DNA from: a bacterium
GTDB taxonomy: Bacteria > Bacteroidota > Ignavibacteria > Kapaibacteriales > UBA7675
Reading direction: 5' to 3'
NCBI GenBank assembly: GCA_030430495.1
Contig: JAUIKM010000035.1
Span: 1 to 64,000 of the forward strand
Length of the DNA: 64,000 nucleotides
Shown here in pieces: positions 3,115 to 62,841 of the stretch (its first letter is position 1; each line of letters begins with the position of its first letter). The position numbers were made by a program, and so were the translations under genes. The notes under the pieces are model-generated. The model worked only from the letters and a program-made list of their open reading frames with translations, was not told the DNA's origin and searched no databases.

Positions 3115-4044
3115 GTGAGCCAGAACCGAATATTTCTCGTTCCCGGCAGCGAGCGCCGCTTCACCCTGGGCGCCGTCCTGCTGACGCTCGGCGTCGTCTG
3201 TTCCGTCTACCTCGGCTACCAGATGGGCGGCGGACTGCTCAAAATCGCGTCCGAGAAATTAATGCCGGATTTCCCGGTCGCCTGGGTGCTCGGATTCAGC
3301 CAGCTGGCATTTCTGATGTTTCCCGCCGTCCTCATGTTAATGTCGGATCGCCGCGGTTTCAGCGGCGTACTGGCGCCGCGTGTGGCGGCCGCCGACGGCG
3401 GAATGCAGGTATCGTTGCCGACGTCGCAGCACTATCTGATCGGTTTTGTCTGCGTTGTGGCCATTCAGTTTTTCAGCGCGTCGTTCACGCCGGTGCAATA
3501 CGATTTGTTTCCGCCGGACTGGGCCGAGGCGCTGCGCGGCTTCAGCGAGCTCTCGCAGGACTATTTCTTCGAGATCTTCGGCGAGTTAAACGCGGCGAAT
3601 TTTCTGCGTTCGTTGTTAATCGTGGCGGTGATTCCGGCTTTGGCGGAGGAGACGCTGTTCCGCGCATATCTGCAGCCGATGCTTGCGCGACGCTGGTCGC
3701 CCGTGGCGGCAATCCTCGTCACTGCTCTGCTCTTTGCGACTTTACACTTTAATCCGGACGCCTTGATTCCGCTCTTTCTGGTTGGCGTTTTACTGGGGCT
3801 TGCGGCCTGGCACACGGGCGGCATTCTGCTGTCTGTCGTGCTGCACTTTGTTAACAACGCCATGGCCGTGGCGGTCTACTTTGCCATGCCGGACCTGAGC
3901 GACACTTCGGCGGACGAGGGCTCCTGGGGCGTCTCGCTGCTGGCGCTGATCAGCCTCGGATTTTTGCTGGCCGCCTTTGTGCGTTTAACGCCCGGAGCGG
4001 GCCGCGAAAGCGTGGCGGAAGGCGAGCTTCACTCCGATGTTTAA
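3115..4044 (+). CDS. CPBP-family intramembrane metalloprotease
   Basis: This is a polytopic membrane protein of 309 residues with a GTG start. The CPBP (CAAX protease/bacteriocin-processing, Abi) motifs are present: EETLFRAYL with the Glu pair near residues 178-179, HFNPDALIPLFLVG with the metal His, and LHFVNNAMAV near residue 243. Family members cleave membrane-anchored substrates or act in self-immunity; the substrate here is unknown. The gene starts 87 bases after pdxA on the same strand, with no good ribosome site. Its last codons touch the converging orphan T9SS tail. From 3258 onward it is rich in TTAA (eight by eye), whereas none occurs in the 1.2 kb before. Confidence 0.85.
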   Translation: MSQNRIFLVPGSERRFTLGAVLLTLGVVCSVYLGYQMGGGLLKIASEKLMPDFPVAWVLGFSQLAFLMFPAVLMLMSDRRGFSGVLAPRVAAADGGMQVSLPTSQHYLIGFVCVVAIQFFSASFTPVQYDLFPPDWAEALRGFSELSQDYFFEIFGELNAANFLRSLLIVAVIPALAEETLFRAYLQPMLARRWSPVAAILVTALLFATLHFNPDALIPLFLVGVLLGLAAWHTGGILLSVVLHFVNNAMAVAVYFAMPDLSDTSADEGSWGVSLLALISLGFLLAAFVRLTPGAGRESVAEGELHSDV

Positions 4045-4165
4045 GGCGGGATTGTCACTGTAGCCGCGGAGACTTTTCCATCGGCACGTAAACGCAGGAC
4101 GTACACACCCGATCCCTGCAAATCCATCTTGTTAGTCGCGCGGTGATCACCGGCGGGTAGACGCG
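4041..4165 (-). pseudogene. orphan T9SS C-terminal sorting tail (gene remnant)
   Basis: The minus-strand frame ending at 4041 reads LPAGDHRATNKMDLQGSGVY then VLRLRADGKVSAATVTIPP. This is a clear relative of the last 40 residues of the next gene (FPAGEHCVTNKMDVQTAGVY then ILRLSVDGKV), and the DNA aligns over about 120 bases (4045-4164 against 4341-4462). Upstream of 4165 the similarity stops and no secreted-protein body or signal peptide precedes it. It is best read as the leftover 3' end of a duplicated or deleted T9SS cargo gene. Confidence 0.7.
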
Positions 4166-4255
4166 TTGCCGGCCTGTTTGTCTTTGTGCCTCTGTGAGTC
4201 GAATGATTCAGTCGTAGCGAGTCTCTGAGTTCGGGGTTTAATGGGCAGAAAAAAA

Positions 4256-4306
4256 GAGCTGTGAACCTCAATGGCACACAACTCTTGTGTAGTTTTACGT
4301 ACTCCG
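4256..4306. repeat. dispersed intergenic repeat, copy C (hairpin plus TAGTTTTACGTA)
   Basis: It starts GAGCTGTGAACC, continues to GGCACACAACTC (an imperfect hairpin) and then TGTAGTTTTACGTA. The order and wording match copies at 41311-41361 and, inverted, 46552-46602. Partial copies are at 22914-22938 and 28974-29002. Confidence 0.65.
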
Positions 4307-4340
4307 CTCCAATCGCATTCTACGCCGCGAGGCCCGATGT

Positions 4341-5699
4341 TTAACGCAGGATCGTCAGCGGCGTGCTGCACACCTTGCCGTCGACGCTTAAACGCAGGAT
4401 ATACACTCCCGCCGTCTGCACATCCATCTTGTTCGTCACGCAGTGCTCACCGGCGGGGAACACGCGCTGAAAAACTTGTTTAACAAGGCGTCCGCGCACG
4501 TCGAACAATTCGGCCGTCACAAGTCCCTGAGTCTCAACGCTGAAGTCCACCGCAAACTCGTCCGTCGCTGGGTTGGGCGTCAGCCGCACCGCCGACCCGC
4601 CGTCCGCCGCTGTGGCCGCCGGCGTTTCGTCCTCAACATCGGTGACCGAATAAACGGGATTTTGAGAGCGGAACATTTCCTTTGGGCTGGCGACGTAAAC
4701 GTATCCGGCCGAATCCAGCTCCACTATTGCAATGCCTTTGTATAAAGTGTCGGCCGTAAAGTTGATGTCCGTACCGATCTGACGCCATTCCACGCCCAGG
4801 TTGTCGGTGTACCACAGTTGCTGTATTCCGTTTACAAAGAAGTTGTTGTGGCGGTCGCGGCGAATAACGGTATACAGTCTGTCCGATGGATCCGGGCCTT
4901 CCGTCCCGCTGAAACTCCAGGTTGCGCCGCCGTCACTCGATCCGAAGTATCGCGAGTCGGGATTGTCCGTCGCCAGCAGGATGTCGCCGCGATTGTTGAC
5001 TTCCAGGAACGTCGGGTGCCACGGTCCTTCGCCATGCTGACCGGCTTTGAGCAGGGTGTCGCGTTTCTCTTTGTTGTCGGTGAGATCGAAGGTCAGCAGG
5101 CTGCCCGGAAAGGAGCCGGCTATAAGGAGCTGATTGCCGTTGCGCAGCGCCGCTTTGGACAAGCTGTTGTTGGGTCTGCCGTAGTGGCGCGGAACGGTCC
5201 ATTGTGTTCCACTTTCATCGCCAACTGACAGGTGCCCGCCTCCGAAAAAATAATCGAAGACCTCCGCCAGAATTTTGCCGCCCGGTTCTTGTTTTAAATC
5301 CACATAATCCAGGTTGTCTCTGCCCCAATCCGGAGATGGGTCCTCCAAAAGGGGGCTCCAGGTCGGGCCGTTGTCCTCTGATTGAAGAATGCTCGTCCCC
5401 AGGCCGATAAGTATCCGTCCGTCGCACAGCGCGGTCAAGCTGTACAAAATACTCTTTGGCAGTGACTCGACCTTTTTCCAGCTTTCGCCGTGATCGTCGC
5501 TGTAAAAGACGTAGTCGGCTCTCCCCCAACCATCTGAGACTTTCAGCAGGAGGCGGCCGTTCGGTGCGCTCAGCACCTGTTCAATTTCCACATCGCCCGC
5601 TTCGGGCGGCAGTTCGATCTTGATCCAGTTGGAATTTTGCGAGAAGGCAACAAACGGATAGGCGCAAAGCATCAGCGCCATGCCCAGGAGTTTTTGCAT
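4341..5699 (-). CDS. secreted BNR/Asp-box repeat protein with T9SS sorting tail
   Basis: This is 452 residues from the ATG at 5699, chosen because it begins a signal peptide (MQKLLGMALMLCAYPFVAFS); the frame extends 31 codons further upstream without one. The body carries Asp-box motifs of the S-x-D-x-G-x-T-W type: YSDDHGESW, QSEDNGPTW, SSDGGATW and the weaker YTDNLGVEW. They suggest a beta-propeller like sialidase or photosystem-stability-type folds; enzymatic activity cannot be inferred. The C-terminus (from about residue 370: LTPNPATDEFAVDF, FDVRGRLVKQVF, GVYILRL) is a type A T9SS sorting domain, so the product should cross the outer membrane and be surface-attached or released. It is co-oriented with the larger T9SS gene upstream. 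Confidence 0.82.
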   Translation of the reverse strand: MQKLLGMALMLCAYPFVAFSQNSNWIKIELPPEAGDVEIEQVLSAPNGRLLLKVSDGWGRADYVFYSDDHGESWKKVESLPKSILYSLTALCDGRILIGLGTSILQSEDNGPTWSPLLEDPSPDWGRDNLDYVDLKQEPGGKILAEVFDYFFGGGHLSVGDESGTQWTVPRHYGRPNNSLSKAALRNGNQLLIAGSFPGSLLTFDLTDNKEKRDTLLKAGQHGEGPWHPTFLEVNNRGDILLATDNPDSRYFGSSDGGATWSFSGTEGPDPSDRLYTVIRRDRHNNFFVNGIQQLWYTDNLGVEWRQIGTDINFTADTLYKGIAIVELDSAGYVYVASPKEMFRSQNPVYSVTDVEDETPAATAADGGSAVRLTPNPATDEFAVDFSVETQGLVTAELFDVRGRLVKQVFQRVFPAGEHCVTNKMDVQTAGVYILRLSVDGKVCSTPLTILR

Positions 5700-5855
5700 G
5701 TCGGGTCCGTACAAATGGTGCAAAACGGTGCGCGTTCCGTTTTTGGGCAATGCCGCAAGTATAACAACAAATGCCCGGACAAAAAAGGGCAAAAACTCAT
5801 GCCGCTCTCTCGGAGCCGTGCGCTTGTTTCGATTTGCCGCGCTCCTGCGCCGGGC

Positions 5856-8800
5856 CTATTCGCTCACAATCATCGTCTGCGTGCCGACGTACGGTCCGGC
5901 CTGCAGACGCAACAGATACAGTCCGCCGGCCAGCTCCCGCGGCAGTTGTGCCTCGTGTTCGCCCGCTGCCATTCTTCCGCCCGCAAGTTCGGCCAAGACT
6001 TCGCCGAGCGTATTGTACACCTGCAGGTGAGCCTCCGTGTCAAAGCCCAGTTCAAAGCGCACCGTCGCGCCGGGGCCGCCCGGATTGGGATGCGGCGCGT
6101 GCAGCGCAAACGCGCCCGCGCCGATCGTCAGCAGGCGTGCGTTGCCCAGACAGAAGGCCGAGTACTGCAAATCGTCGCTTGTCAGCCCGCCGGCGCTAAA
6201 ACAGTCCGAATCGCTTGTTAAATCCATGCCTGCCGCTTCGATCAGAATGATTCCGTCCTCGTTCAACTCCACCAGCAGCACATGTGTTTGCCACTGAAGC
6301 AGTTCGGCGACGTCCGTCGGCGGGCCTTCGCCTCTGATGTTTAACAGGCCGCCGCTCACGTCCGGCGTCAGTGTAAACGTCCAGCCCGGCGCTGTAACAA
6401 TCGATTCCGGAATGATGCGCGCCGCCTGCTGATTGAACGCCAGGTCGATGTTAATACCGTTGACCACGCCGCGACCGCCCACCTGCGTCAGTCGCCAGGT
6501 GATGCGGTCGCCCGGCAGAACATTCGTTTCGTCGATGGATACTTTAATGTCTGTCCTCATCGGCGCGGAAACTACCAGTGTGATCTCTTCCGTTGTCTCA
6601 CAGCCGTCTGCGCTCGTAAACCTTGCGGTCAGAGTTTTGCTGTCATTTAATGTCAGCATCGGCGTGAAACTCGTCGCGTCGTCCAGTCCCGCCGCGGGCG
6701 TCCAGACAATCGTGCCGGGCCGGTCGGCTGCTGCGTTTAACTGTACTTCCGTGCCGCGGCGACAGATCAGGCGCGGCGGTTCGTCAATTGCCAGATGCGG
6801 CTGTGGAAACACTTCAACAAAGGTCGAGTCAAAAGCCGAACATCCATTGCGGTCGGCGTGCAGATACACCCAGCGCGATTTCGTCAATCTCAGGCCCGGA
6901 CTTGCACTGCCGGGATCGTTAAACAGGTCCGCCGGCGTCCATTGCAGCGCCGCGTCGGCCGGGACCTCGGCCTGCAATTCAACTTCTTCGCCCGCACAGA
7001 CCGCCGCGGGTGTGTTGATAATTATCTCCAATGCATCGTTAACGCTTATGTCGATCGACGCCTGCGCACTGCACCTGCCGTTCCAGACGGTGATTGTATA
7101 TCGGCTGGGTCCGGTCGGCCTGACCGTCGGCGCGGGACTCATCGGGTCGTCGAAGTCTTCCGGATTATCCCATGCAAATCGCTCAACTTCGGTCATCAAT
7201 ACCCGCAGTTGCACTTCCTCGCCCGGGCAAACCACAAGTCGATCAGCGACAATCTCGACAGTCGGTCCCGGCGTCACCTGGACAAAAACGGAGTCGCGCG
7301 CCACACAGCCGTCGGCTGCGCCGACCTCAACAACGTACCAGCGCGAAGCCGGCGGGCTGACCGTCGGAGTGTTGGAGTTGACATCGTCAATGTATTCGTC
7401 CGCGGGTGTCCAGCGCAGCTCGCCGCCGCTCGATTCAGCCCGCAGTTGTATCGCTTCGCCCGCGCAGATTGAAAGGTCCGCGTTGACAATGTTAACCGAC
7501 GGCGGCGAGTCGACGCGCACAAAAACGGAGTCGCGCGCCGCACAGCCTTCAGTCGAGACGACGTCCAGATAATACCAGCGCGAAGTCGGCGGACTGACCG
7601 TAGGCGCAAGTGACTTAACATCGTCGATGTATTCGTCGTTGGGCGACCACACAAACTCATCGCCGACCGCCTCGGCGTTTAACTGAACTGCGCCGCCTGC
7701 ACACAAAGCCACGTCGCCGCCGGCGTCGGCTACAGGCGCGGGATAAACAAATACCGTGCGCGTGTCTTCATGCGCGCCCCATTTATTCGATCCAACCAGG
7801 TGAATCCTGTACTCGCCGGCCTCCGGAAAACACACCGTGCCGGGGTTGCGCACATTCCAGTTGCGAACGTCGCCGTCATGTTCAATCGTCCACGACCATT
7901 CGTCCGGATGGAACAGACTTGCATCGCGGATGTTAATGCATTCTCCCTGACAGATCGTGGAGTCGGAGAGCTCGATCCTGACCTCGGGCCCCATGCACAG
8001 GTCGGACGCCACGCTCGAATTCCAGCTCATTACCTGGTTCGGCGGGGTGGAACACACAAATGGCGCGCCTTGAATCAGGATCTCTTTAGTGTTAAAATCA
8101 CAGGCCGCGCCGACCGCATTGGGATTCCGAATAGCGCCGACCCATTGATCGCGCCCGTTGGACTCAGTCTGATGTGTGCCGAAATATATCTTGCCGTCCG
8201 GCGCGAGTTGCAGGTCGCAGATTCCGACAGAATTTTCGTTAATTATCGGCGATTTCAGTACCGTTCGTCGATTAAACACTTCGTCGCCGTCGCTCAGACT
8301 TAAATCCAACTGTATGATGCACTGTTCCTGTTTCCAACTGCCTGACAGATAACACTTTGTTTCGTCGGGTGAAAACGCGACATGCGGATTAACTCTGTAC
8401 TCGAAGTTCTTATCGGTCAGTCCCAGCGCTTGTGTTAATTCGCCGCTGCCCGTGTCAAATTCAAATATTTCAAAAATGCCGGGTGTCAGCGGCGTGTTGT
8501 AGAATGGGTCCCAGGTTGTCATAGCCAGGTAATTGCCGCCGGGAGAAAAGTACAGTCCGCCGACCCAGGCCCAGTGGTTGCGCGATTCAACAACTGCCGT
8601 CGGCCCGATGTCGCTCACGACCGGTTCGTGATCGACGCCTTCAGACGTTAATTTAAAACTCAGATAGCGATTGCCGTACTGTTGACGCGAAACGATCCAG
8701 AAAAAGTTGCCTTCGCAGTTCCACGTGGCGGCTACCCGCTCGGTCGCCAGCGAGTCTATTAACACATTTTTCTGCACGATGAATTCTTCTTCTGTCGCGG

Positions 8801-9239
8801 CTTCAATATCGACCACGGAATAAAACAAACCGCGCAACGCGCCATGCGGAACCGGCAGACCGTCAGTGTGAAAAATGTAGTAGTAGCGCTTTGATCCGGG
8901 CAACGGCGTGATCACGGAGCCCTGCATCGCGGTTCTTGAGCTGAACAACGTATGTCCGTTTTCAAAGCCGCTTTGTCGCCCCCGGTACAACTCATAACCA
9001 TCGAACAGCAAAAGCAACTCGCCGCTGTCCGGATCGGCTATCATGCTTTGTCCTTCCCCTTGTTCTACCGGCCCGTCCAGCAATATTGTCGGCGGGGAAT
9101 TGTTAAAGTCCAGCCCGCAGATATACCGCCAATACCAGATGTTGTTGTATTTGGGTCGTTTGTTTAGCTGTGCATTCAGCGTGGGCAGGCAACAGATTGT
9201 CAGAAAAAAAAGCGTTAACAGTCGGGCAAGGCTACGCAT
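5856..9239 (-). CDS. large secreted PKD-like repeat protein with T9SS sorting tail
   Basis: This is about 1127 residues from 9239, where a signal peptide begins (MRSLARLLTLFFLTICC); an ATG two codons earlier is possible. The N-terminal third (WYWRYICGLDFNNSPP, SGELLLLFDGYELY, YYYIFHTDG) resembles the propeller-like region of Bacteroidota gliding-associated surface proteins. Next come about five PKD-like Ig domains of about 75 residues, each with a C-A-G-x-x-x-x-L motif, an xWxPxDEYIDD-type strand and a final GC-xx-DSxFVxV. A cohesin-like segment follows (ITWRLTQVGG, INIDLAFNQQAARIIPES), then a type A T9SS tail (HPNPGGPGATVRFELGF, GGLYLLRL). It is probably cell-surface or extracellular; the ligand is unknown. 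The first two PKD units are very similar, suggesting internal duplication. Confidence 0.85.
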   Translation of the reverse strand: MRSLARLLTLFFLTICCLPTLNAQLNKRPKYNNIWYWRYICGLDFNNSPPTILLDGPVEQGEGQSMIADPDSGELLLLFDGYELYRGRQSGFENGHTLFSSRTAMQGSVITPLPGSKRYYYIFHTDGLPVPHGALRGLFYSVVDIEAATEEEFIVQKNVLIDSLATERVAATWNCEGNFFWIVSRQQYGNRYLSFKLTSEGVDHEPVVSDIGPTAVVESRNHWAWVGGLYFSPGGNYLAMTTWDPFYNTPLTPGIFEIFEFDTGSGELTQALGLTDKNFEYRVNPHVAFSPDETKCYLSGSWKQEQCIIQLDLSLSDGDEVFNRRTVLKSPIINENSVGICDLQLAPDGKIYFGTHQTESNGRDQWVGAIRNPNAVGAACDFNTKEILIQGAPFVCSTPPNQVMSWNSSVASDLCMGPEVRIELSDSTICQGECINIRDASLFHPDEWSWTIEHDGDVRNWNVRNPGTVCFPEAGEYRIHLVGSNKWGAHEDTRTVFVYPAPVADAGGDVALCAGGAVQLNAEAVGDEFVWSPNDEYIDDVKSLAPTVSPPTSRWYYLDVVSTEGCAARDSVFVRVDSPPSVNIVNADLSICAGEAIQLRAESSGGELRWTPADEYIDDVNSNTPTVSPPASRWYVVEVGAADGCVARDSVFVQVTPGPTVEIVADRLVVCPGEEVQLRVLMTEVERFAWDNPEDFDDPMSPAPTVRPTGPSRYTITVWNGRCSAQASIDISVNDALEIIINTPAAVCAGEEVELQAEVPADAALQWTPADLFNDPGSASPGLRLTKSRWVYLHADRNGCSAFDSTFVEVFPQPHLAIDEPPRLICRRGTEVQLNAAADRPGTIVWTPAAGLDDATSFTPMLTLNDSKTLTARFTSADGCETTEEITLVVSAPMRTDIKVSIDETNVLPGDRITWRLTQVGGRGVVNGINIDLAFNQQAARIIPESIVTAPGWTFTLTPDVSGGLLNIRGEGPPTDVAELLQWQTHVLLVELNEDGIILIEAAGMDLTSDSDCFSAGGLTSDDLQYSAFCLGNARLLTIGAGAFALHAPHPNPGGPGATVRFELGFDTEAHLQVYNTLGEVLAELAGGRMAAGEHEAQLPRELAGGLYLLRLQAGPYVGTQTMIVSE

Positions 9240-9673
9240 GGGCATACCGCGATCGAGATCGTTAAACAAGGGCGGGAGCCGCTGCGGGGACGGGAAGAGC
9301 GGCTCCGTGAACTTCGAGCTGCCCTAAAGACTCAGGAAACAAAATTTGGTCCCGCCCGCCGAGAAAACCCACCGCTGCGCCCTCGCTTCGCTTCCGGCTG
9401 GCTCTTTTTTTTTGTTTGTCATTGTGTTAGTAGTTTTCAGCCCTCGAATCGAACATCCAGAGGAACCGCAAATAACACATTCCGCAAGTTTACCGGAAAT
9501 GACTATTTTTAGCGTTGCAAGCTGAACGAGCCGATCCAGGCCGCAAGCACTCAGTTCAGATTCATGAACCAACAGATGACCGGGGTCGGACATGGCTTGG
9601 AAGCGCTGTAGCGTGTTTCAACCTGTATAAGATCGACCATGTTTGAACACCAGCAAACGAGAGAAACTGTTGA
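9240..9673. other. intergenic region upstream of the TIR gene array
   Basis: This 434-base gap separates a leftward T9SS gene from the rightward TIR array. At 9371-9422 it holds an inverted copy of the A-rich/hairpin repeat seen at 451-496, 22994-23040, 41421-41470 and 54405-54435. A run of nine T at 9404-9412 lies in it. The right half is AT-richer and must hold the promoter of the TIR genes. I see no convincing gene. Confidence 0.55.
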
Positions 9674-10963
9674 ATGTCAAATCCGAAGCATATCGAAATT
9701 TTGAAAAGCGGAGTAGAAGAATGGAATGCCTGGCGGGAAGAGAATCCGGAAGTGAGGCCGGATCTTATGGGAGCCGATCTTTCGAGAGCCAATCTTGAAG
9801 TTGCCAATCTTTATGGTGCCAATCTTGAAGGTGCCAATCTTAAAGGTGCCAATCTTTATGGTGCCAATCTTAAAGGTGCCAATCTTGAAGTTGCCAATCT
9901 TTATGGTGCCAATCTTTATGGTGCCAATCTTTATGGTGCCAATCTTGAAGTTGCCAATCTTTATGGTGCCAATCTTTATGGTGCCAATCTTGAAGGTACC
10001 CATCTTGAAGATGCCAATCTTAAAGGTGCCCATCTTAAAGGTGCCCATCTTGAAGGTGCCAATCTTTATGGTGCCAATCTTTATGGTGCCCATCTTGAAG
10101 TTGCCAATCTTTATGGTGCCAATCTTAAAGGTGCCAATCTTTATGGTGCCCATCTTCAATTCTGTCGTTTGCAGCGTGCTGGTTGCACAAAAACAATATT
10201 CAAAAATGCTTTTTTTGGAGGGTCCGTAATCGTCGATTGCGACCTCTCAGAAAGCATTGGTCTGGACCACTGCGAACATTTTGGCCCGTCTAGCATAGAC
10301 AACCAGACAATTATTAAATCGCGAGGCCTCCCGGCTGAATTCCTCAAAGGCTGCGGCTGGCAGGACTGGGAGATTGAATCCGCCAAAATGTACAATCCCA
10401 ATCTGAGCGCTGCGGAGCTCGGCGAAATCAACAACCGCGTTTATGAGCTGCGTCACCAAAACAAACTGCAATTGGCCAGTTTGTTTATTGCCTATGCACA
10501 TGCCGATGTGAAATTTGTTGAACAGATGGAAAAACGACTCGAGAACAGCGGCATCCGCTTCTGGCGGGACATTCACCATTCCATTGCCGGGCCGATGGAC
10601 AAAGTCATCAAGAAAGGCATTCACGATATGGGGACCGTTCTGTTGATTCTCTCGCGCAACTCGGTCAACAGTGAATGGGTTAAATACGAAGTCAGCGCCG
10701 CGCGCGATAAACAAAAAGACTCGCCGATTCCAACCCTTTGTCCGATTGCACTGGACGATTCATGGAAAGAGTGCAGGTGGCCGGACGATCTGCTGCGCGT
10801 TGTCAAAAGCTACAATATCCTCGATTTCTCTCAGTGGAAGCAAAGCGAAGACTCCAGGTCCAGACTGTACGAACGTTTACTTAAGGGCCTGCACATCTTC
10901 TACAGTGAGCCCAAAAAGTCGGACGACGAGTCAGATAGCCACTGGAAGCCCATGGGTGCTTAG
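9674..10963 (+). CDS. pentapeptide-repeat/TIR-domain protein 1
   Basis: This is 429 residues. Residues 1-31 form a conserved leader (HIEILKSGVEEWNAWREENP). Residues 32-166 are about 27 pentapeptides (A-N-L type), which should fold as a right-handed quadrilateral beta-helix. A linker follows (EFLKGCGWQDWEIESAK), then a TIR domain from about residue 270 (LFIAYAHADVKFVEQ, IRFWRDIHH, LLILSRNSVNSEWVKYE). Glu339 in W-V-K-Y-E is at the position of the NADase glutamate of SARM1 and bacterial TIR enzymes, so NAD+ hydrolysis is plausible but unproven. It is the first of three tandem paralogues. The repeat DNA is unusually uniform, so its length may vary between strains. Such fusions occur in many bacteria; I know of no defined role. 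Confidence 0.88.
   Translation: MSNPKHIEILKSGVEEWNAWREENPEVRPDLMGADLSRANLEVANLYGANLEGANLKGANLYGANLKGANLEVANLYGANLYGANLYGANLEVANLYGANLYGANLEGTHLEDANLKGAHLKGAHLEGANLYGANLYGAHLEVANLYGANLKGANLYGAHLQFCRLQRAGCTKTIFKNAFFGGSVIVDCDLSESIGLDHCEHFGPSSIDNQTIIKSRGLPAEFLKGCGWQDWEIESAKMYNPNLSAAELGEINNRVYELRHQNKLQLASLFIAYAHADVKFVEQMEKRLENSGIRFWRDIHHSIAGPMDKVIKKGIHDMGTVLLILSRNSVNSEWVKYEVSAARDKQKDSPIPTLCPIALDDSWKECRWPDDLLRVVKSYNILDFSQWKQSEDSRSRLYERLLKGLHIFYSEPKKSDDESDSHWKPMGA
9797..10156 (+). repeat. 24 near-identical 15-bp units inside TIR gene 1
   Basis: The units have the form AATCTTxxxGGTGCC with TAT, GAA or AAA as the variable codon (pentapeptides YGANL, EGANL, EVANL, KGANL). Of 24 consecutive units almost all belong to these classes, showing recent expansion or homogenisation. 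Because the unit is 15 bases, changes in number keep the frame. The complementary strand is also open here, only as a by-product. Confidence 0.92.
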
Positions 10964-11033
10964 CGCAGCGGCTTGATCCGAGTAGCTGAAACAGAAATGT
11001 GTGTTTGTTGAACAACTTCTCTTGCAGGCTGAA

Positions 11034-12428
11034 ATGGCAAATCCGAAACATGTTGAGATTCTGAAGAGCGGCGTTGAGGAGTGGAATGCCTGGCGAAAAG
11101 AGAATCCGGAAGTGAGGCCGGATCTTAGTCGGTCAAGTTTGGTGGATTTCAATCTTGGTGATGCCAATCTTTCCATCTGCAATCTAAACGGAGCTGACCT
11201 GAAATCAGCAAATCTTTCCGGTGCAAATTTGTCTGGTGCAACTCTTAGAAATTCTAATCTCGAGAAGACAGATTTTCTCATGGCCAATTTGGCAGGCGCT
11301 TGTCTCGACAAGTCGTTTCTATTTCGGGCAGTGCTTTGGGATGTGAATCTATCAGGTGCCTCTTGCAAAGAAGCTAAGTTTGTGAGGCTTGAGTTTGCAA
11401 ACGCAGAACTAATTGACGCTAGCTTTCTTGCTGCGGAGTTTCGCGATGTAACTGTACGAGAATCTACAATAGCAGCAACATTTCATACTGCTGTATTCCG
11501 CAATGTTCAGATACGGGACTCTGTATTAACGGCAGTTACGTTTGAAAAGGCTTTGCTCTCGCAGGTCATTTTCTCCGGAATCGAGTTTTCCGATGTGAGA
11601 CTTAGTGACGCAAAACTGGAAGGAGTTGCCATTGTTAAATCAAGCCTGGTTAGAGCTGAAGGGCTGAGTTCATGTCAACATTTGACACCAACCGCAATAG
11701 ATAGAATATCCGTTGTAAACTCTGATAAAATTCCCGATGCCTTTTTAAAAGGCTGTGGCTGGCAGGACTGGGAGATTGAGTCCTCCAAGCTGTATAATCC
11801 CGAATTGGCAGCCGATGAAATCGCCGAGATCAATAATAAGGTCTTTCAGCTGAGACACAAGACCAAACTTCAGATTGCCAGCCTGTTTCTTTCCTACTCG
11901 CGCGACGACGGCGAGTTTGTTGATGGACTTGAGGTATATCTCAATGCAAGCGGTATCAGATACTGGCGCGACATCCACGACGCTACAGCCGGCCCACTTG
12001 ACAAGGTCATTGCGCGTGGCATAGACGTGTCGGGTACTGTCCTTCTGGTCTTGTCCAAACAGTCTGTCAAAAGCGACTGGGTGAAGTACGAAGTCAAAAA
12101 GGCAATCGATAGACAGCATAAGTCTGTAGTGCCTGTTCTGTGCCCAGTAGCTTTGGATGATTCCTGGAAAAACTGCCGCTGGCCAGAGAATGTGCGGAGA
12201 TCAGTCGAAGAGTTTAATATCCTCGACTTTTCTCAATGGAACGAGAGCGAAGAAACACGTGCGAAGTTGTACAAGAAGTTGATCGACGGTCTGCATATTT
12301 TTTATAGTGAGCCGAAAAATCACTCGGTCTTTAACGCTTTTCTTGGGGAGGATGTCTTGACTCCAGAAATGCGGCAAGAGTTCGATCAAAACACTTTGAG
12401 GAAATTACTTGGCAACAAGCAAAGCTAG
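11034..12428 (+). CDS. pentapeptide-like/TIR-domain protein 2
   Basis: This is 464 residues. I chose ATG 11034 because it aligns with the starts of its paralogues (MANPKHVEILKSGVEEWNAW); the frame opens 11 codons earlier. The repeat region (about residues 30-215) is much more degenerate than in copy 1, with only some clear A-x-L pentapeptides. The linker (FLKGCGWQDWEIESSKLYNP) and TIR domain (LFLSYSRDDGEFVDGLEVYL, IRYWRDIHDATAGPLDK, LLVLSKQSVKSDWVKYE) are well kept, and Glu353 is the catalytic candidate. A C-terminal extension of about 30 residues is unique to this copy. It lies 70 bases after gene 1, on the same strand, so co-transcription is likely. Confidence 0.87.
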   Translation: MANPKHVEILKSGVEEWNAWRKENPEVRPDLSRSSLVDFNLGDANLSICNLNGADLKSANLSGANLSGATLRNSNLEKTDFLMANLAGACLDKSFLFRAVLWDVNLSGASCKEAKFVRLEFANAELIDASFLAAEFRDVTVRESTIAATFHTAVFRNVQIRDSVLTAVTFEKALLSQVIFSGIEFSDVRLSDAKLEGVAIVKSSLVRAEGLSSCQHLTPTAIDRISVVNSDKIPDAFLKGCGWQDWEIESSKLYNPELAADEIAEINNKVFQLRHKTKLQIASLFLSYSRDDGEFVDGLEVYLNASGIRYWRDIHDATAGPLDKVIARGIDVSGTVLLVLSKQSVKSDWVKYEVKKAIDRQHKSVVPVLCPVALDDSWKNCRWPENVRRSVEEFNILDFSQWNESEETRAKLYKKLIDGLHIFYSEPKNHSVFNAFLGEDVLTPEMRQEFDQNTLRKLLGNKQS

Positions 12429-12454
12429 GTTATAAAAAATGGTGGAGAGGGTGA

Positions 12455-13513
12455 ATGGCAAATCCAGAACATGTCAGAATTCTTAAGAGCGGTGTTGAGA
12501 AGTGGAATGCCTGGCGGAGAGAGAATCCGGATGTGAGGCCGAATCTTACGAGAGCCGATCTTGAGGAAGCCAATCTTTCGGGAGCCAATCTTACGGGAGT
12601 CGATCTTGAGGGAGCCCAACTTTCGAGAGCCCAACTTCCGATAGCCCAACTTTCGAGAGCCAATCTTTTTAGAGCCCATCTTGAAGGTGCCAATCTTTAT
12701 GGTGCCCATCTTGAAGGTGCCAATCTTCGATTATGTCGTATGCACAGTGCTGGTTGCACAAAAACAATATTCAAAAATGCTTTTTTTGGAAAGTCCGCAA
12801 TCGTCGATTGCGACCTCTCAGAAAGCATTGGTCTGGAGCACTGCAAACATCATAGACCGTCAAGTATCGACAACCAAACAATCATCAATTCCGGCGGCCT
12901 CCCCGCTGAATTCCTCAAAGGCTGTGGTTGGCAGGACTGGGAGATTGAATCCGCGAAACTGTTTAATGCCGATCTGAGTGCTGAAGAAATTGCCGAAACA
13001 ACCAACAATATTTATCAACTACGACACGAGACGACCTTGGAAATTCCCAGACTGTTTATCTCTTACTCACATGCCGATCGCGAATTTGTGGATCAACTGG
13101 AACAACGCCTGGAAGCTGCACGCATTCGTTTCTGGCGCGACAAACGCGACGCCACGGCGGGTCCGCTCGACAAAATTATCAGCCATGCAATTGATTCCAG
13201 CGGTACCGTCCTGCTCATCCTGTCGGAAAAGTCCATCAACAGCACCTGGGTGAAGTTCGAAATGGACAAAGCCAACAGCCGCTACTTCAAGAGCGAGATT
13301 CCCGTGCTGTGCCCGATTGCGCTGGATGACTCCTGGACAAAAGGTCGCTGGCCGGAAAACCTGATGCGCACATTAAAAGAGTTTCACATCGTCGATTTTT
13401 CGAGCTGGAACGAGAGTGAGGCGCAACAGGACATCCTGTTTAAAAAGTTGATCGACGGTTTGAAGCTGTTTTACAGCCAGTCCAAAGACGCAAAACGGAA
13501 AGGGGGTGAGTGA
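12455..13513 (+). CDS. pentapeptide-repeat/TIR-domain protein 3
   Basis: This is 352 residues, the shortest of the three, starting 26 bases after gene 2 behind GGAGAGG. Residues 30-95 hold about 13 pentapeptides, including units of the copy-1 type (EGANLYGAHL). Residues following them are almost identical to copy 1 (AGCTKTIFKNAFFG, VDCDLSESIGL) at both DNA and protein level. The TIR domain runs from about residue 200 (LFISYSHADREFVDQLEQ, IRFWRDKRDATAGPLDK, LLILSEKSINSTWVKFE), with Glu269 as the catalytic candidate. This gene closes the array; the converging TonB receptor gene ends 56 bases downstream. Confidence 0.88.
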   Translation: MANPEHVRILKSGVEKWNAWRRENPDVRPNLTRADLEEANLSGANLTGVDLEGAQLSRAQLPIAQLSRANLFRAHLEGANLYGAHLEGANLRLCRMHSAGCTKTIFKNAFFGKSAIVDCDLSESIGLEHCKHHRPSSIDNQTIINSGGLPAEFLKGCGWQDWEIESAKLFNADLSAEEIAETTNNIYQLRHETTLEIPRLFISYSHADREFVDQLEQRLEAARIRFWRDKRDATAGPLDKIISHAIDSSGTVLLILSEKSINSTWVKFEMDKANSRYFKSEIPVLCPIALDDSWTKGRWPENLMRTLKEFHIVDFSSWNESEAQQDILFKKLIDGLKLFYSQSKDAKRKGGE

Positions 13514-13569
13514 AACTGCAAATGCGGAATAAATTCCAGCAGATCAAAGCATGGACATATATGAGTCCC

Positions 13570-54582: not shown

Positions 54583-54665
54583 GGAGGGTTCGCATAATTG
54601 GTATTGCAGCGGTCTTGAAAACCGCCGGGCGCAAGCCTGTGGGGGTTCGAGTCCCTCACCCTCCG
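54583..54665 (+). tRNA. tRNA-Ser (anticodon TGA)
   Basis: Acceptor arms GGAGGGT (54583-54589) and ACCCTCC (54658-54664) pair fully, with discriminator G. The anticodon stem GCGGT/ACCGC encloses loop CTTGAAA, giving anticodon TGA. The variable arm is long, as in class II serine tRNAs, and the T arm carries GGTTCGAGTCC. CCA is not encoded. The AT-rich mobile region begins right after it, so its 3' end is the likely attachment site. Confidence 0.96.
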
Positions 54666-54679
54666 CTTCTAAAACATCT

Positions 54680-54712
54680 AAGCCCTTGTAAATCAATGAT
54701 TTGCAGGGGCTT
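54680..54712. repeat. long inverted repeat just inside the element
   Basis: The 16-base arms at 54680-54695 (AAGCCCTTGTAAATCA) and 54697-54712 (TGATTTGCAGGGGCTT) pair with two G-T wobbles around a single central A. It lies 15 bases past the tRNA and is followed by TATGTTTTG. It may terminate the tRNA transcript, or be part of the recombinase site (attL arm or core). Confidence 0.7.
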
Positions 54713-54932
54713 TATGTTTTGAGTCATACATATTTCATACACTTTGAGCGTGTTTTTTGAGCAATTGAAAATTTCTGCATTTTTTTTCAATTCGCCCGCA
54801 CATTCCCAGCAATTTCAATCTCATTTGCGGAACTGCTACGAATTTCTCCGATACCAGCGACGGTTGCTACAAACAAAAAGAGCCGATCAAAAAGACCAGC
54901 TCTCTGTTCCTAACCATCATAATGCCTATTTC

Positions 54933-56510
54933 TCAGGCTTGCTCCACCTTCTGCGCTCGCAACAATCGCCGCTTCATCCGACGGTTTTCAAACCACCGTT
55001 TCATCGTCAACCGCACCGGTTTTAAGTTCCGGTAGACATACAATGCCTCATTGTCCTTGAGTCGCCGTACCTCGTCCGGCGTCATAAGTTTGCGTTGTGA
55101 CAACCGTTCTCGCGCTGGACTGTCCGTCCCAAATCCGTCCTCGTTGTACGTAACGGTTGCGTCTCCGGCAATACGGCTCAAGCGTTCTGCAGTGTCTATG
55201 TCGACACCTGGCAACACCAGCAAGGAACTACAATTGCTCTGGATGGTCTTCGCTTCACTGTCTCCGTAGCGGTTCAACTGCGCAAGCGACTGTACACCCA
55301 ACAGCAAACTGACACGGTACGACCGCGCCAATGTGATCGTATTGGCAAAATCAGGTATCGGAGGAATATTCGCGAACTCGTCCAACAGAAAGAAAATCGA
55401 ATGGTCGTCCTCTGCCGGTTCCTCTAAAGCAAAGTCCAGCAGTTGTTTGTACAAGATCGTAAACAAGAATCCAAAATCGCCCATACGCTTTGGCGGCACG
55501 TTGAGAAACAACACTGCTCCATTTGGTGCGGTTCGCAATGCCTCGAAATCCAAACTGTCTTTGCCCTCGGTTACCGCTTGAAAGATAGGATCATTGCACG
55601 GATCAAGTGCGACTCTTGCGTTTGATAAAATTGACCCTCTCGGCTCTGGTGGCTCATTCAAAAAAGCCTGATACGTTTGCATGAGTTTGTCCGGTAAATA
55701 CTGTGCCAGAATCCTGTCCAATACTTTTTGCTCCGGAGTGCCGATCAGCTCAAGCCAGAACGCCACCGTCGACAAGTTGCGTAAATCAACCTCATCTAAT
55801 TTCCACGCGGCAAATAGCAAGATTGTCACAACCCTTTCTGCCCCCTTCGTCCAGTAGGAGTCTTTTTGTTTTCCGGTGCTAAAACTTGCTGAAATCAGGA
55901 TACGAGACAACTGCTTTATATCAGAAAGATCGCGACATCTATGCAGCGGATTAAACACCGCTGACTTGGTCGTATCGGATAAATTGAGTGTCAACATTTC
56001 GTAGCCCTGTGCACGCAGATATGGTGCGGTTAACTGCTGTATTTCGCCCTTAATATCTGTTATCACCATCGAATGCCCGTGCCTCGCTAAATACACCACA
56101 TTCGGAATAAAGACTGACGACGATTTACCGCTGCCCGATACACCGACCATTAACATGTGGTGAAACGAACGTTCTTCAGAAAGTCGCTTCTTTTTGCCGT
56201 CTAAGAGTAAACCTTTGTTTTTGCGACGAAAAAACTTCCGCATTTCTCGCCTGCTCAGCCAATCGGCTGAACCGTACAAGTCACTGACCTGGGGTGAGCC
56301 GGATACGAGTTGTTTTACCAGTCGAAACAAGGAAACGAAAAGCCATTTGATACACTTGAATACCCACTTGAACAGCCAACGAACGGGCTTCAGTAAGCCC
56401 CATACGCCACCAACCCGTTTGGTAAAACGAGGAAAAAGCCAGTTCACAATCAGCGTTAAGAAGAAGTACAGTATCAATGCCGTCAGAATAATTTCCAGCC
56501 ATGAAGTCAT
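54933..56510 (-). CDS. type IV coupling protein (VirD4/TraG/TraD family)
   Basis: This is 525 residues. An N-terminal membrane helix (LEIILTALILYFFLTLIVNW) precedes a hexameric ATPase domain: Walker A MVGVSGSGKSSSVFIPN, then MVITDIKGEIQQLTAPYLRA, and Walker B FFLLDEFANIPPIPDF with the sensor-like LGVQSLAQLNRYGDSEAKTI. The protein links the relaxase-DNA complex to a type IV secretion channel. Its start overlaps the relaxase stop by four bases. It is the last gene before the tRNA end. Confidence 0.93.
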   Translation of the reverse strand: MTSWLEIILTALILYFFLTLIVNWLFPRFTKRVGGVWGLLKPVRWLFKWVFKCIKWLFVSLFRLVKQLVSGSPQVSDLYGSADWLSRREMRKFFRRKNKGLLLDGKKKRLSEERSFHHMLMVGVSGSGKSSSVFIPNVVYLARHGHSMVITDIKGEIQQLTAPYLRAQGYEMLTLNLSDTTKSAVFNPLHRCRDLSDIKQLSRILISASFSTGKQKDSYWTKGAERVVTILLFAAWKLDEVDLRNLSTVAFWLELIGTPEQKVLDRILAQYLPDKLMQTYQAFLNEPPEPRGSILSNARVALDPCNDPIFQAVTEGKDSLDFEALRTAPNGAVLFLNVPPKRMGDFGFLFTILYKQLLDFALEEPAEDDHSIFFLLDEFANIPPIPDFANTITLARSYRVSLLLGVQSLAQLNRYGDSEAKTIQSNCSSLLVLPGVDIDTAERLSRIAGDATVTYNEDGFGTDSPARERLSQRKLMTPDEVRRLKDNEALYVYRNLKPVRLTMKRWFENRRMKRRLLRAQKVEQA

Positions 56511-57382
56511 GTGTGTCTCCGTTGAGAATGGGTGAGAGATTGGTTCTGAGTGATGGAGTCCAATTGCCGCATACGCTCTTCATAAGTGTTGAAGCGTTGG
56601 TGCATGCGGTTGTAATCTTCTTGCAATTGCAAGGTGCGCAGTCTGGCGCGGATACCGTCAAAATGAGCCGTGATAGTATTGCCGCGTTGAACTAATTGAA
56701 TCTGGTGTTCATTGAGAACTTGTTCCAATTCTTCAAAAGTAACTAAAGATGAATCAGCGAATACCTCGGTTAACACTTCCTTCAGTATGTCTTTCTTGCT
56801 AGGAGCTTTCGTTCGGTCTTTGAGAAAATATTCCTTGTCACCGATGGAGTGCGTTTGTGCCTGTTCTTGCTCCTGCTCCTGCTGATTGTACCGTGTCGGC
56901 AATTCCAGTTCCGGAAATTTTTTCTGAACAAAGCGTTCCATTTGACACTTTATGACCTGAAGCTGCTGTGGCGTAATGCGTACCTTCTGTTTGCTGCCCA
57001 CAAAATTTGGTGAACTGAGAATGTGATAGTGGATATGCCCCGAATTAACATGCAGTGCACCGTAGCTCAAAACGTCACGCCAATAGGTATCCGTGAAGTA
57101 TTGCGCCGCTTCGGTTAGTATCTCGCATTGCCGTTGTAATGGTATCTTCTCAACTCTCTTGAGAGAAAAGATATTGTGCCGCAAGCGGACACCGTTTTTA
57201 CGCTTGGGGACATATTTCCGATCGTTTTCAATAAATCGTTTCGCAATGGCGGCCTGATCCATATGGTCAACCAGATTGAGATTGCGGGATAGGTAGTGCC
57301 CGCCCTGATCGTGATCAAACAAATACTGCACCATAAAGGTGAAGTTCGTCCGCTGCCCTTGTGTTAAGAGTTTGATAATCAT
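56507..57382 (-). CDS. relaxase (MobA/VirD2-like nuclease)
   Basis: This is 291 residues from ATG 57382 (MIIKLLTQGQRTNFTFMVQY); the frame runs further upstream inside the MobC-like gene. The three-His metal motif is clear: ALHVNSGHIHYHILSSPN (about residues 115-130). The catalytic Tyr should be among the N-terminal residues near FMVQYLFDHD. After the nuclease domain comes a Gln-rich linker (RYNQQEQEQEQAQ) and a helical C-terminus. It would nick oriT and lead the strand into the recipient. It overlaps both neighbours by four bases. Confidence 0.87.
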   Translation of the reverse strand: MIIKLLTQGQRTNFTFMVQYLFDHDQGGHYLSRNLNLVDHMDQAAIAKRFIENDRKYVPKRKNGVRLRHNIFSLKRVEKIPLQRQCEILTEAAQYFTDTYWRDVLSYGALHVNSGHIHYHILSSPNFVGSKQKVRITPQQLQVIKCQMERFVQKKFPELELPTRYNQQEQEQEQAQTHSIGDKEYFLKDRTKAPSKKDILKEVLTEVFADSSLVTFEELEQVLNEHQIQLVQRGNTITAHFDGIRARLRTLQLQEDYNRMHQRFNTYEERMRQLDSITQNQSLTHSQRRHT

Positions 57383-57801
57383 TGTGGTGGCGTTTGTGTG
57401 AAAATGAGAAACTGTTTTTCCAGACGATTCAATTTGGAGTGAATCTGTTCTAAAGTGCGGCGCACTTCTTTGGGTAGATAATGAAACTGTCCGGTCTTGG
57501 CTTCGGCGTTGTAATTCCTCGCAATCTGATTTACAAGATTGCCATAGTTGCGCAGTATTCGGATAACATGTTGCAACGACTCGGCGGTCGTGCACGGCAC
57601 GACAAACGTGCCATTGTGATAGGCAACAGCAAATTGCTTTAACAACTTCGCCACTGATGTTTTCTCCTTGTTCGCCGCGCTATCGAGCGTGGCAAATTCT
57701 TTCACCGACAACGTCACCACTACCCGCCGCCGGCGGTTTTTATTCTTTTGGTAGTATTCTCGCTGGTAAGCCTGCTGCTGATCTTTGTTTTTGTATGGCA
57801 T
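57379..57801 (-). CDS. MobC-like mobilization accessory protein
   Basis: This is 140 residues. A basic N-terminus (QREYYQKNKNRRRRVVVTLS) is followed by a ribbon-helix-helix-like segment and the phrase IRILRNYGNLVNQIARNYN, typical of MobC/relaxosome proteins (NxLNQIARxxN). Such proteins melt oriT DNA beside the nick for the relaxase, whose gene follows with a four-base overlap. AAGGAAA precedes the start. Upstream lies the candidate oriT. Confidence 0.82.
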   Translation of the reverse strand: MPYKNKDQQQAYQREYYQKNKNRRRRVVVTLSVKEFATLDSAANKEKTSVAKLLKQFAVAYHNGTFVVPCTTAESLQHVIRILRNYGNLVNQIARNYNAEAKTGQFHYLPKEVRRTLEQIHSKLNRLEKQFLIFTQTPPQ

Positions 57802-57989
57802 GATCGTGTTTCCTTTAGTGGTGATGTTGTGAAGAGGGTTCGAGGGAAACTTCCCTCGCCAGTGTACAATTTGCTGCGTTCATCCGACGCTCTGCGATTG
57901 GGTTTGACGCCAAATTGTTAACTGGCTGTGCATGGAAGAATTGGCGGACTGTGGGAGTGTCCGCCAATATCTGCATGCACTGTCTGAAG
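57802..57989. other. candidate origin of transfer (oriT) with two hairpins
   Basis: The gap directly upstream of the mob genes contains CGAGGGAA/TTCCCTCG (57841-57858, loop AC) and ATTGGCGGAC/GTCCGCCAAT (57940-57968, nine-base loop), both perfect. Between them is AT-richer DNA with GTTCATCCGACGCTC, which could hold the nick. The second hairpin could instead terminate the gene at 57990-58385, but no strong U-run follows. Confidence 0.5.
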
Positions 57990-58385
57990 CTATTGTCTCA
58001 TGCGTTGCATGAGCTGTTGTTCCTGCGTCAGTCGACGCGATTCGCTCCATTCATCGAACAATGTCTGAACCTCGGCACTGCGAAACCAGAAATGTGAATC
58101 AAGATAGTTTGTGTAAATCTCATACTCTGGGGGATACACTTCGCTATAGCCGGTGCGTTCAAACAGGACTTCGGATTGTTCTCGCAGAAACTGCTGAGCA
58201 ATGCTGTCGAATGCCTGATATATCAAAACATTGATGTCCTCGATCTTTCCATTAGAAAGCTCTCGGGCTTGTTCGATATTGCGCTCTAGGTCGATGTCAT
58301 TGGCGTCATACAGGTCAAGCAAGAATTCAAGATCAAGCGAGCCGCATTGGAGCAAATCACAGAGCAGCATGTCTTGTGTATTCAT
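57990..58385 (-). CDS. hypothetical acidic protein of the mobile element
   Basis: This is 131 residues and largely helical by composition (LLQCGSLDLEFLLDLYDAND, NVLIYQAFDSIAQQFLREQS). Acidic residues predominate except for a basic Gln-rich end (SRRLTQEQQLMQRMRQ). No family is recognised. It lies between the excisionase-like gene and the mob genes on the same strand, so a role in excision, transfer or its control is possible but unsupported. Confidence 0.65.
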   Translation of the reverse strand: MNTQDMLLCDLLQCGSLDLEFLLDLYDANDIDLERNIEQARELSNGKIEDINVLIYQAFDSIAQQFLREQSEVLFERTGYSEVYPPEYEIYTNYLDSHFWFRSAEVQTLFDEWSESRRLTQEQQLMQRMRQ

Positions 58386-58463
58386 GTGGATTGGTGGTTA
58401 AGGATGGTGTAATCGTATCGGTTAAAAACCATTTAAAAATGGCAGATAGTGAACTATTTTCGA

Positions 58464-58775
58464 TCAGCTATTGCCGGTGATTTTAGCGGCAACCGGCAAC
58501 GCCATCACCTCGGAACGCTTGAAATACACTTTTCTTCCGATGCGATAGAATGGCAGGCGTTTTTCTCGCTTCATCTTGTGAATAGTCGGTTTGCTTACCC
58601 GTAGAATTCGGCATACTTCCGCGATGGTGATGTAGTCATCATCTGCGGGTGGTTGCAGTTTCAGATTTTCAATGGTGATTTGAACGGTCTCCTGTACGGT
58701 CTCAAATACGATCGCTCTGAACTCATCGAGCGTGAGCGATACGAACATGGCGGGCGTGTTTTGGGTATTGAACAT
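58464..58775 (-). CDS. excisionase-like helix-turn-helix protein
   Basis: This is 103 residues. After an N-terminal helical stretch (LDEFRAIVFETVQETVQITI) comes a MerR/Xis-type winged HTH: YITIAEVCRILRVSKPTIHK, then KREKRLPFYRIGRKVYFKRS. AAGGAG precedes the start at good spacing. Proteins of this HTH_17 type in Bacteroidota conjugative elements control excision or mobilization genes. It is divergent from the TPR/LuxR regulator. Confidence 0.82.
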   Translation of the reverse strand: MFNTQNTPAMFVSLTLDEFRAIVFETVQETVQITIENLKLQPPADDDYITIAEVCRILRVSKPTIHKMKREKRLPFYRIGRKVYFKRSEVMALPVAAKITGNS

Positions 58776-59012
58776 GTCAGTCTCCTTGTCGATGGTGGTT
58801 CAAATGTTCGGCATTGGTGGTGCCTGTCGCTGCTGGTTCGCTGGGTGAAGCGGAAAAATTCGCAACGTAGTTCTGCACTACAGAAGAAAATACAGGATAA
58901 TTATTGAAAAGAATCAACCAAAAAAAGCCTGTCGTTGCATGATTTCAGAAAAATGGTGCAAATTCAAAGCTATAATGACTCACTCAGATGCTCAATTTTT
59001 TCAGGTGCCAGA

Positions 59013-60653
59013 ATGGTGAGGAATAGAAATCAACAAAACATGGAGCTTCAGGCACTCTTGGCCGAAGCACATGAATTTCATTCGACCGATCCCCACAAGT
59101 CAATAGCTGCAAGTGCCAAGTCTCTGGAGCTGGCCATAAAAATCGGGGACAGACAGGGTGAAGCGCAGAGTCACATGTACATCGGAATTGCGAAAATAAT
59201 CTTGGGGCAGTTCGACGCTGCGGTGAATATTCTATCCCATGCTATCTCAATTTTCCGAGAACTTGATAATTGGCTATACCTGGCAAAGTCATTCCGTCAC
59301 AAAGGAACTGCTTATCTGATACCGGGAAAATACCTACCCGCAGCACAATGCTTCTTGGAATGCTGCTCTGCGAGTCAGGCACTTGAGACGAAAGATGAGT
59401 ATCATCTGGCTCGACTTTCTTTAGGACAAATACACAGCGTACTCCAAGACCATGACAAAGCATTGAAACTCACTTACGAGAGCTATCAATATTTTCATGC
59501 AACACAAAATCGTAAGTATCTGCCCTTGAGTTTGAAGAATCTGGCAAGCTGCTACTACAATATCAATGAATTTAAAAAGGCTCTTGAGTTCCAAAATATT
59601 GCAAACAAACTTCGGGACGCTAATCCTTGGCATGTTTCAAGTGATCTCCTCAATCTGGCAATCATGTACGTCAAGACCGGTAAACCGGTAAAGGCACTCA
59701 AATATTTCCACAAAGCGTTGGATCATAACGCAAAGCACGGTTTTGATGCGCAACGGGCTTCAGTCTATTTTAACATGGGAGAGCTTCACAGAAAGTATTT
59801 GAAGAATCCGGATGAAGCACTTTCAGCATATACGAAAGCCTTGTCAATTGCTGAAGAGCACAACAACAAAAGAGATGAGGTATACATTCGCAAAGGACTA
59901 GGACAGCTATTCATTGCGAAACAACAGTGGGGGAAAGCCGAAGAACAACTCCAAAAAACCTTGAGGCTTGCTGAGTCTTCAATTGAACCGATTGTGTGTA
60001 GCTCGGCAACCTATCTGCTCGCAACAGTGTATGAAAATCGTGGTGATTTTGATCAAGGGTACAGATTTCTCAAGGAGCACATTAAATATCTGGAACAATT
60101 GAATGATGAAAGTAAACAAAGAGCAATCACACTGTCTCAAATCGCGACCTATCAGGCTGAACAGCGGAGAGAGTTGACTGAGAAACAACTAGGTGAGCTA
60201 GCCAGTAGGCTACGTTCTCAAAGAACCTCGCTCCAAAACACCGCCAGCCTTCCGGCTATTGTTCAAGCGTTGCAAAGTGTTGTCGATATGAAGCCTGAAC
60301 GAATACGCGGCGAGCTATCCTCACTCATTGCAAAGTTTGAACAGGAGAATGATGCTGCCACAAATCAAGGAATCGGCTTTCTCTGGCAAGACCTACGGGC
60401 TTCCGTTGCTGATACGATAGCGCAGGCGATCACCAAGAAATTTCCTGAAGTTGGTCTCTCACCTCAAGAACAAAAGGTCTGTGTTCTATTGCGAATGGGA
60501 TTCACCAACGAAGAGATCAGGACTGCTCTTGACATCCCGTCGGTACGAACGGTCGAAACATTCAAATACAGAATCAAGAAAAAGTTGAAAGTCGAAAAAG
60601 GACAGAATTTGTCCGTCGTCATCATGTCAGTGCCATTGCACGGGGAATACTAG
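59013..60653 (+). CDS. TPR-repeat regulator with LuxR-type HTH
   Basis: This is 546 residues from ATG 59013 (AGG eight bases upstream); the frame opens 26 codons earlier. About nine tetratricopeptide repeats occupy residues 10-400 (for example GEAQSHMYIGIAKIILGQFD, SVYFNMGELHRKYLKNPDEA). A helical linker and C-terminal HTH follow: VGLSPQEQKVCVLLRMGFTN, EEIRTALDIPSVRTVETFKY, RIKKKLKV. No membrane helix or sensor domain is visible, so it is probably a cytoplasmic DNA-binding regulator that responds through the TPR surface. It stands divergent from the excisionase-like gene. Confidence 0.85.
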   Translation: MVRNRNQQNMELQALLAEAHEFHSTDPHKSIAASAKSLELAIKIGDRQGEAQSHMYIGIAKIILGQFDAAVNILSHAISIFRELDNWLYLAKSFRHKGTAYLIPGKYLPAAQCFLECCSASQALETKDEYHLARLSLGQIHSVLQDHDKALKLTYESYQYFHATQNRKYLPLSLKNLASCYYNINEFKKALEFQNIANKLRDANPWHVSSDLLNLAIMYVKTGKPVKALKYFHKALDHNAKHGFDAQRASVYFNMGELHRKYLKNPDEALSAYTKALSIAEEHNNKRDEVYIRKGLGQLFIAKQQWGKAEEQLQKTLRLAESSIEPIVCSSATYLLATVYENRGDFDQGYRFLKEHIKYLEQLNDESKQRAITLSQIATYQAEQRRELTEKQLGELASRLRSQRTSLQNTASLPAIVQALQSVVDMKPERIRGELSSLIAKFEQENDAATNQGIGFLWQDLRASVADTIAQAITKKFPEVGLSPQEQKVCVLLRMGFTNEEIRTALDIPSVRTVETFKYRIKKKLKVEKGQNLSVVIMSVPLHGEY

Positions 60654-62164: not shown

Positions 62165-62250
62165 CATGCCTTGTACCAATTTTACACCACAATTGGGTCT
62201 TTTCTGATCTCCCTCCAATCGCTTGTTATCCATACCTTGCATTCACATAG

Positions 62251-62759: not shown

Positions 62760-62773
62760 GGTCACCGCATCTC

Positions 62774-62812: not shown

Positions 62813-62841
62813 CAACCACTTCTTAAACAAAGGAAATAATT

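Follow-up and report, generated by a model that had tools for sequence, protein, structure and literature searches.

Three tandem genes join pentapeptide repeats to a TIR domain

We analysed a 64,000-nucleotide stretch of a Kapaibacteriales genome (Bacteroidota, Ignavibacteria, UBA7675; assembly GCA_030430495.1, contig JAUIKM010000035.1, positions 1 to 64,000), hereafter the window, in which three intact, co-oriented open reading frames (ORFs) on the forward strand encode proteins with pentapeptide repeats and a TIR domain. Gene 1 (9674-10963, 429 residues), gene 2 (11034-12428, 464 residues) and gene 3 (12455-13513, 352 residues) are separated by 70 bp and 26 bp, and with such gaps they may form one operon. 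All three have a 29-residue N-terminal cap (N-cap; MxNPxHxxILKSGVExWNAWR), pentapeptide repeats, a linker with the motif FLKGCGW and a TIR_2 domain. We start gene 2 at the ATG at 11034 and not at the GTG at 11001, which opens a longer frame, since it is at 11034 that the common N-cap (MANPKH..EEWNAWR) starts. The gene 1 repeats form an array of 25 units of 15 bp (9788-10162; 24.6 copies with 86% match in Tandem Repeats Finder), followed by the linker (10163-10471, by alignment) and the TIR domain (10472-10906); the more degenerate repeats of gene 2 (11124-11648) precede a TIR domain at 11874-12308, and gene 3 has a short repeat part (12539-12748) and a TIR domain at 13043-13477.

The preliminary description of this DNA had proposed three genes joining a beta-helix repeat domain to a TIR domain, and on this the ORFs, Pfam, AlphaFold and Foldseek agree. 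In proteins 1, 2 and 3, respectively, Pentapeptide (PF00805) matches with E=7e-46, 2e-21 and 3e-18, all above cut-off, and TIR_2 (PF13676) with E=2e-18, 1e-17 and 2e-20 (64.7-73.8 bits for a cut-off of 28). The AlphaFold model of protein 3 (mean per-residue confidence, pLDDT, 78.8) shows a beta-helix mostly above 90 followed by a TIR-like fold at lower confidence, in which the loop 229-245, bearing on the state of the active site and the BB loop, falls below 50. The degenerate repeats of protein 2 are still modelled as a beta-helix, and its linker and TIR domain are modelled poorly. Foldseek searches with the protein 3 model returned pentapeptide proteins and the TIR domains of MyD88 and RPS4. 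The glutamate of the WxxxE motif is found where it had been placed, at Glu339 (codon 10688-10690), Glu353 (12090-12092) and Glu269 (13259-13261).

A widespread family with recurrent tandem arrays

Searches of 395 genomes across the phylum and 194 genomes of the cyanobacterial class yielded many relatives, and the loci retrieved from them gave 49 full-length linker-TIR members, window genes included, nearly all with an N-cap and repeats in front. Their hosts are cyanobacteria and Bacteroidota (the latter inferred, in the sense of GTDB; one family, f33, is likewise inferred to be Chlorobiaceae). The glutamate is present in 43 of the 49, and six members (L095, L106, L126, L128, L129 and L130) have WxxxT, WxxxA or WxxxM instead. 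Such numbers rule out that the layout is rare. Tandem arrays are found elsewhere too: L082 has two such genes in a row and L091 has three, of which the last carries a different type of TIR. The layout had been presented as matching no described defence system: the open-licence literature searched contains no paper that describes the pentapeptide-TIR architecture as a system, but the layout is widespread and its tandem arrays recur.

The TIR_2 matches in this genome are genes 1 to 3 and one partial TIR at the start of a contig. The relative G002, of the same family, has one gene pair and further copies, with an in-frame stop in one gene; two of its contigs, which share 98 identical terminal bases, probably join. 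In the tree of the linker and TIR, genes 1 to 3 make up one clade (100/99) and a second consists of two G002 genes (97/81); the arrays therefore expanded separately or were homogenised.

Pentapeptide proteins are also found apart from this architecture. Sixteen have been reported in Pelodictyon (PMC4606965), and a short-pattern scan of genome contigs gave only pentapeptide proteins lacking a TIR. A search of plasmids gave almost only pentapeptide matches, the sole TIR among the matches listed being unfused and close to pentapeptide and transposase genes, and a collection of phage GenBank records had no match to the gene 3 TIR. Three further loci were noted. In G002, directly downstream of a pentapeptide-TIR gene, L122:1490-3184 encodes a possible partner, a protein in which a long pentapeptide region accompanies an N-terminal part that apparently spans the membrane. 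In Phormidium, L008:6818-10478 holds seven tandem pentapeptide genes with a related N-cap and no TIR domain. In L098:7599-8724, the N-cap ORF and the TIR ORF lie in different frames with the break inside the repeats, from a frameshift or an assembly error.

The repeats turn over while the TIR domain is kept

The preliminary description had the repeats diverging strongly and the TIR parts kept. Within the window this is weakly true: repeat identity is 0.57, 0.36 and 0.43 for the gene pairs 1-3, 1-2 and 2-3, against 0.60, 0.53 and 0.54 for the linker and TIR. Among relatives the pattern is strong. The linker and TIR span 217-278 residues (standard deviation 13), against 38-319 (standard deviation 78) for the preceding part, a few N-termini of which are overcalled or cut by contig ends. 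Across pairs of glutamate-bearing members with TIR identity of at least 0.70, mean identity is 0.77 in the TIR and 0.43 in the aligned residues of the repeats, with a mean length difference of 40 residues, values that rest on 36 non-independent pairs; the same measures in the Glu-less members are 0.79, 0.82 and 1 residue. The cleanest comparison comes from one genome pair, G246 and G302, at loci with common flanking genes. There, two glutamate-bearing pairs have repeats that are 0.45 and 0.41 identical (nonsynonymous divergence, dN, 0.55 in both) and TIR domains that are 0.85 and 0.82 identical (dN 0.10 and 0.12; L088/L093 and L089/L094), whereas the Glu-less pair L130/L095 has repeats 0.84 identical (dN 0.09) and a TIR 0.78 identical (dN 0.12). 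In cyanobacteria, L109 and L112, also with common flanks, have repeats of 58 and 222 residues and TIR domains 0.86 identical; the near-identical pair L115/L117 is conserved throughout, as low divergence would predict.

In several f33 genomes, the site between hypF and hypE is occupied by members of two distant TIR lineages (L089, L094 and L103; L096 and L100), and L105 has a broken copy there. The glutamate-bearing genes thus resemble accessory alleles that can be exchanged, and the Glu-less gene, with a fixed repeat part of 272-274 residues at one conserved locus, resembles a core gene. The Glu-less members may be non-enzymatic scaffolds.

The gene 1 array offers a view of how such repeats change. 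Its units show zero synonymous differences at positions i-2, i-1, i and i+1, and the outward-facing i+1 is mostly Y, E or K (proportion of nonsynonymous differences, pN, 0.45), while five other arrays of the family have a synonymous proportion (pS) of at least 0.25 at every position. The gene 1 array was therefore recently amplified from few unit types; because independent changes are so few, we claim no selection on its units. The DNA of genes 1 and 3 is most alike where the repeats end and the linker starts, with up to 95% nucleotide identity and a third-position identity of 1.00, and their TIR domains are near saturation at third positions (identity about 0.4). This mosaic points to gene conversion as its probable origin. 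A ratio of dN to synonymous divergence of 1.31 between the repeats of genes 1 and 3 comes from an unsafe alignment, and we do not claim positive selection from it.

Members on phage-bearing contigs

Two scans of viral contigs found seven distinct contigs with family members (L164-L170), and the WxxxE motif is present in all seven. Phage-type genes accompany the member on five: terminase subunits, including the large one, and a primase-polymerase (prim-pol) on L165; an integrase, a primase, a single-stranded DNA-binding protein and a terminase-like protein of the large-subunit type on L166; a prim-pol only on L167; a tape measure on L168; and a major head protein with a terminase large subunit on L169. 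On L164 an ORC-CDC6-like ATPase lies directly upstream of the family member.

A candidate single-protein sensor-effector in phage conflict

SpbK of Bacillus subtilis is a TIR enzyme that cleaves nicotinamide adenine dinucleotide (an NADase), and the phage portal clusters it through its N-terminal part (PMC12847820). We favour, at about an even chance, a similar role for each of the three genes, as a one-protein sensor-effector in phage conflict, in which the repeat rod would serve as a variable sensor or scaffold and the TIR would be an NADase activated by clustering. An intracellular cue, most probably a component of a phage, would be recognised by the outward face of a rod made of the N-cap and the pentapeptide solenoid, or would cluster it; the TIR domains, brought into head-to-tail contact by clustering, would then cleave NAD+ through the WxxxE glutamate, and the cell would stop before phages are released. 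Several copies in tandem, each with its own repeats, would widen recognition, and new repeats might arise by amplification of 15-bp units, exchange of modules and gene conversion. In favour of this role stand the architecture and the folds, the glutamate kept in most of the family and in every member on a viral contig, the repeat turnover at shared loci, the two TIR lineages and the broken copy between hypF and hypE, the phage-type genes beside members, the ORC-CDC6-like ATPase on L164, the low GC content of the array and the lack of an array at the corresponding site in G002, with SpbK as precedent. Ligand, clustering, NAD+ cleavage, arrest and protection are predictions from the family's sequences and models.

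Several observations weigh against this role. First, TLR2, whose TIR is non-enzymatic, has WCKYE at the WxxxE position; to our knowledge, TLR2 has not been described as an NADase. The preliminary description had taken the glutamate as a sign of NAD+ cleavage, and its conservation in the family and on the viral contigs agrees with that, but WxxxE alone is not proof, because TLR2 carries it too. Second, enrichment in defence islands, the check proposed at the outset, is absent when 141 genes lying no more than three genes away from any of 27 members are compared with 141 control genes: PADLOC at 1e-10 finds 14 families with one member each around the members and no fewer in the control set, whose longer list consists mostly of helicase and methylase models matched by single proteins. 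Third, the viral contigs are few, and two of the seven lack a phage hallmark, L164 and L170, the latter judged by eye from the genes seen. Fourth, slippage or replacement can change repeats neutrally.

The first two of these observations also fit a TIR that serves as a non-enzymatic assembly module, the repeat rod being a scaffold and the TIR recruiting partners in signalling or cell organisation with no killing; TLR2 and TLR15, which have the TIR sequences nearest to the family among solved structures, and the existence of a conserved Glu-less subgroup point the same way. We consider this unlikely, since nearly every other member retains the glutamate, as do those on viral contigs, the TIR profile also matches the NAD hydrolase AbTIR (E=2e-9), and hypervariable repeats are not required of a fixed scaffold. 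The fourth could be taken further, with arrays that expand and contract by slippage in proteins of housekeeping function. The gene 1 array is indeed a fresh 15-bp minisatellite, and Pfam assigns the neighbours of the members to housekeeping families, the only notable excess being genes with HTH_3 (four) and pentapeptide (four) domains. The Glu-less clade, however, keeps its repeat length over the same divergence, and in the glutamate-bearing arrays L099 and L112 the units are old and differ at synonymous positions (pS up to 0.72). Slippage is therefore not enough to account for the turnover, and we regard neutral change as quite improbable.

Thoeris-like signalling, in which a cyclic ADP-ribose messenger produced by the TIR switches on a separate effector, would account for the ThsB_TIR model of Pfam scoring above its cut-off in all three proteins and for weaker PADLOC matches to ThsB; yet TIR_2 fits better, no ThsA-like gene occurs among the neighbours scanned, and this genome has no match to SIR2_2 or to STALD (for STALD a weak negative, its control being silent too), which makes such signalling a very doubtful explanation. 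Gyrase-targeting pentapeptide proteins are acidic DNA mimics, and although they have the same beta-helix fold, a Qnr- or MfpA-like protein with an added TIR is highly implausible here, the net charges of the repeat parts (-4, -3 and -1) being close to neutral and far from a strongly acidic surface.

The favoured sensor-effector role has precedents in its parts. SpbK, too, combines a TIR with a sensor part at the N-terminus in one protein, and we propose that the array proteins, like SpbK, are activated by clustering on a phage component; the SpbK sensor, however, is a portal-binding domain in the place of the N-cap and pentapeptides, and its activity and ligand are proven, whereas the array proteins are known from sequence and models. 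Phage defence also employs ThsB and Swarozyc, which are TIR or TIR-like proteins (PMC11312562). The array TIR domains share the fold of ThsB, and differ in their fusion to pentapeptide repeats. Swarozyc/DUF4062 is a TIR-like NADase of phage defence triggered by the portal, but it belongs to another TIR-like family and sits in defence islands, and its description does not mention pentapeptide repeats (PMC13174449). In the available text on conflict systems (PMC7159879, PMC8195603, PMC10853773), pentapeptide repeats are paired with immune-type domains, namely vWA/VMAP, TRADD-N or ORC-CDC6, and ORC-CDC6-like ATPases are linked to pentapeptide and TIR domains (PMC10853773; compare the ATPase on L164); the order N-cap, pentapeptides, linker and TIR within one gene is not described in that text. 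The stand-alone pentapeptide proteins HetL, Rfr and NP275 share the beta-helix and have no TIR domain. The parts and probably the working principle are thus already known, and the architecture as a system appears new to the literature found.

A broader proposal, which we advance tentatively, is that these genes belong to a widespread family of immune receptors with the pentapeptide rod as a quickly rewritten recognition surface and the TIR as constant killer, a role that the slow-evolving Glu-less sister lineage would have lost; the idea of a rewritten surface builds on gene 1, where the 15-bp units are identical but for a small alphabet of residues. If this is true, a large group of proteins labelled only as pentapeptide repeat proteins would be single-gene immune receptors, with a sensor reshuffled by simple repeat changes in a bacterial parallel to the variable-repeat receptors of plants and animals. 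Pentapeptide repeats, whose role is mostly obscure, would gain a testable function as recognition surface, for which the natural Glu-less lineage is a ready comparison.

The chromosomal site

In G002 the genes for a TonB receptor and a CPBP protease are 117 bp apart, and PdxA and a sigma factor then follow in the same order as here. In the window the receptor and the protease are separated by 9.5 kb (4045-13569 is the stretch absent from G002), which holds two genes of the type IX secretion system type and the array, a difference that reflects gain here or loss in G002. The GC content of the array genes is 0.46-0.49 (0.47-0.52 at third codon positions), against 0.57-0.62 (0.59-0.80) in neighbouring genes. 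A 124-nucleotide direct repeat, 75% identical (4034-4157 and 4334-4457), lies at the left edge of this stretch.

Two other regions of the window stand out. Its start (1-255) consists of 2.5 copies of a 102-bp tandem repeat with 95% match. At the other end, a tRNA-Ser gene (54583-54666) is followed by DNA of low GC content (0.43-0.52) up to position 64000, and the region 54583-64000 resembles an integrated mobile element, encoding a coupling protein of the TraG/TrwB type (54933-56510) and a TPR-LuxR protein beside ORFs without matches.

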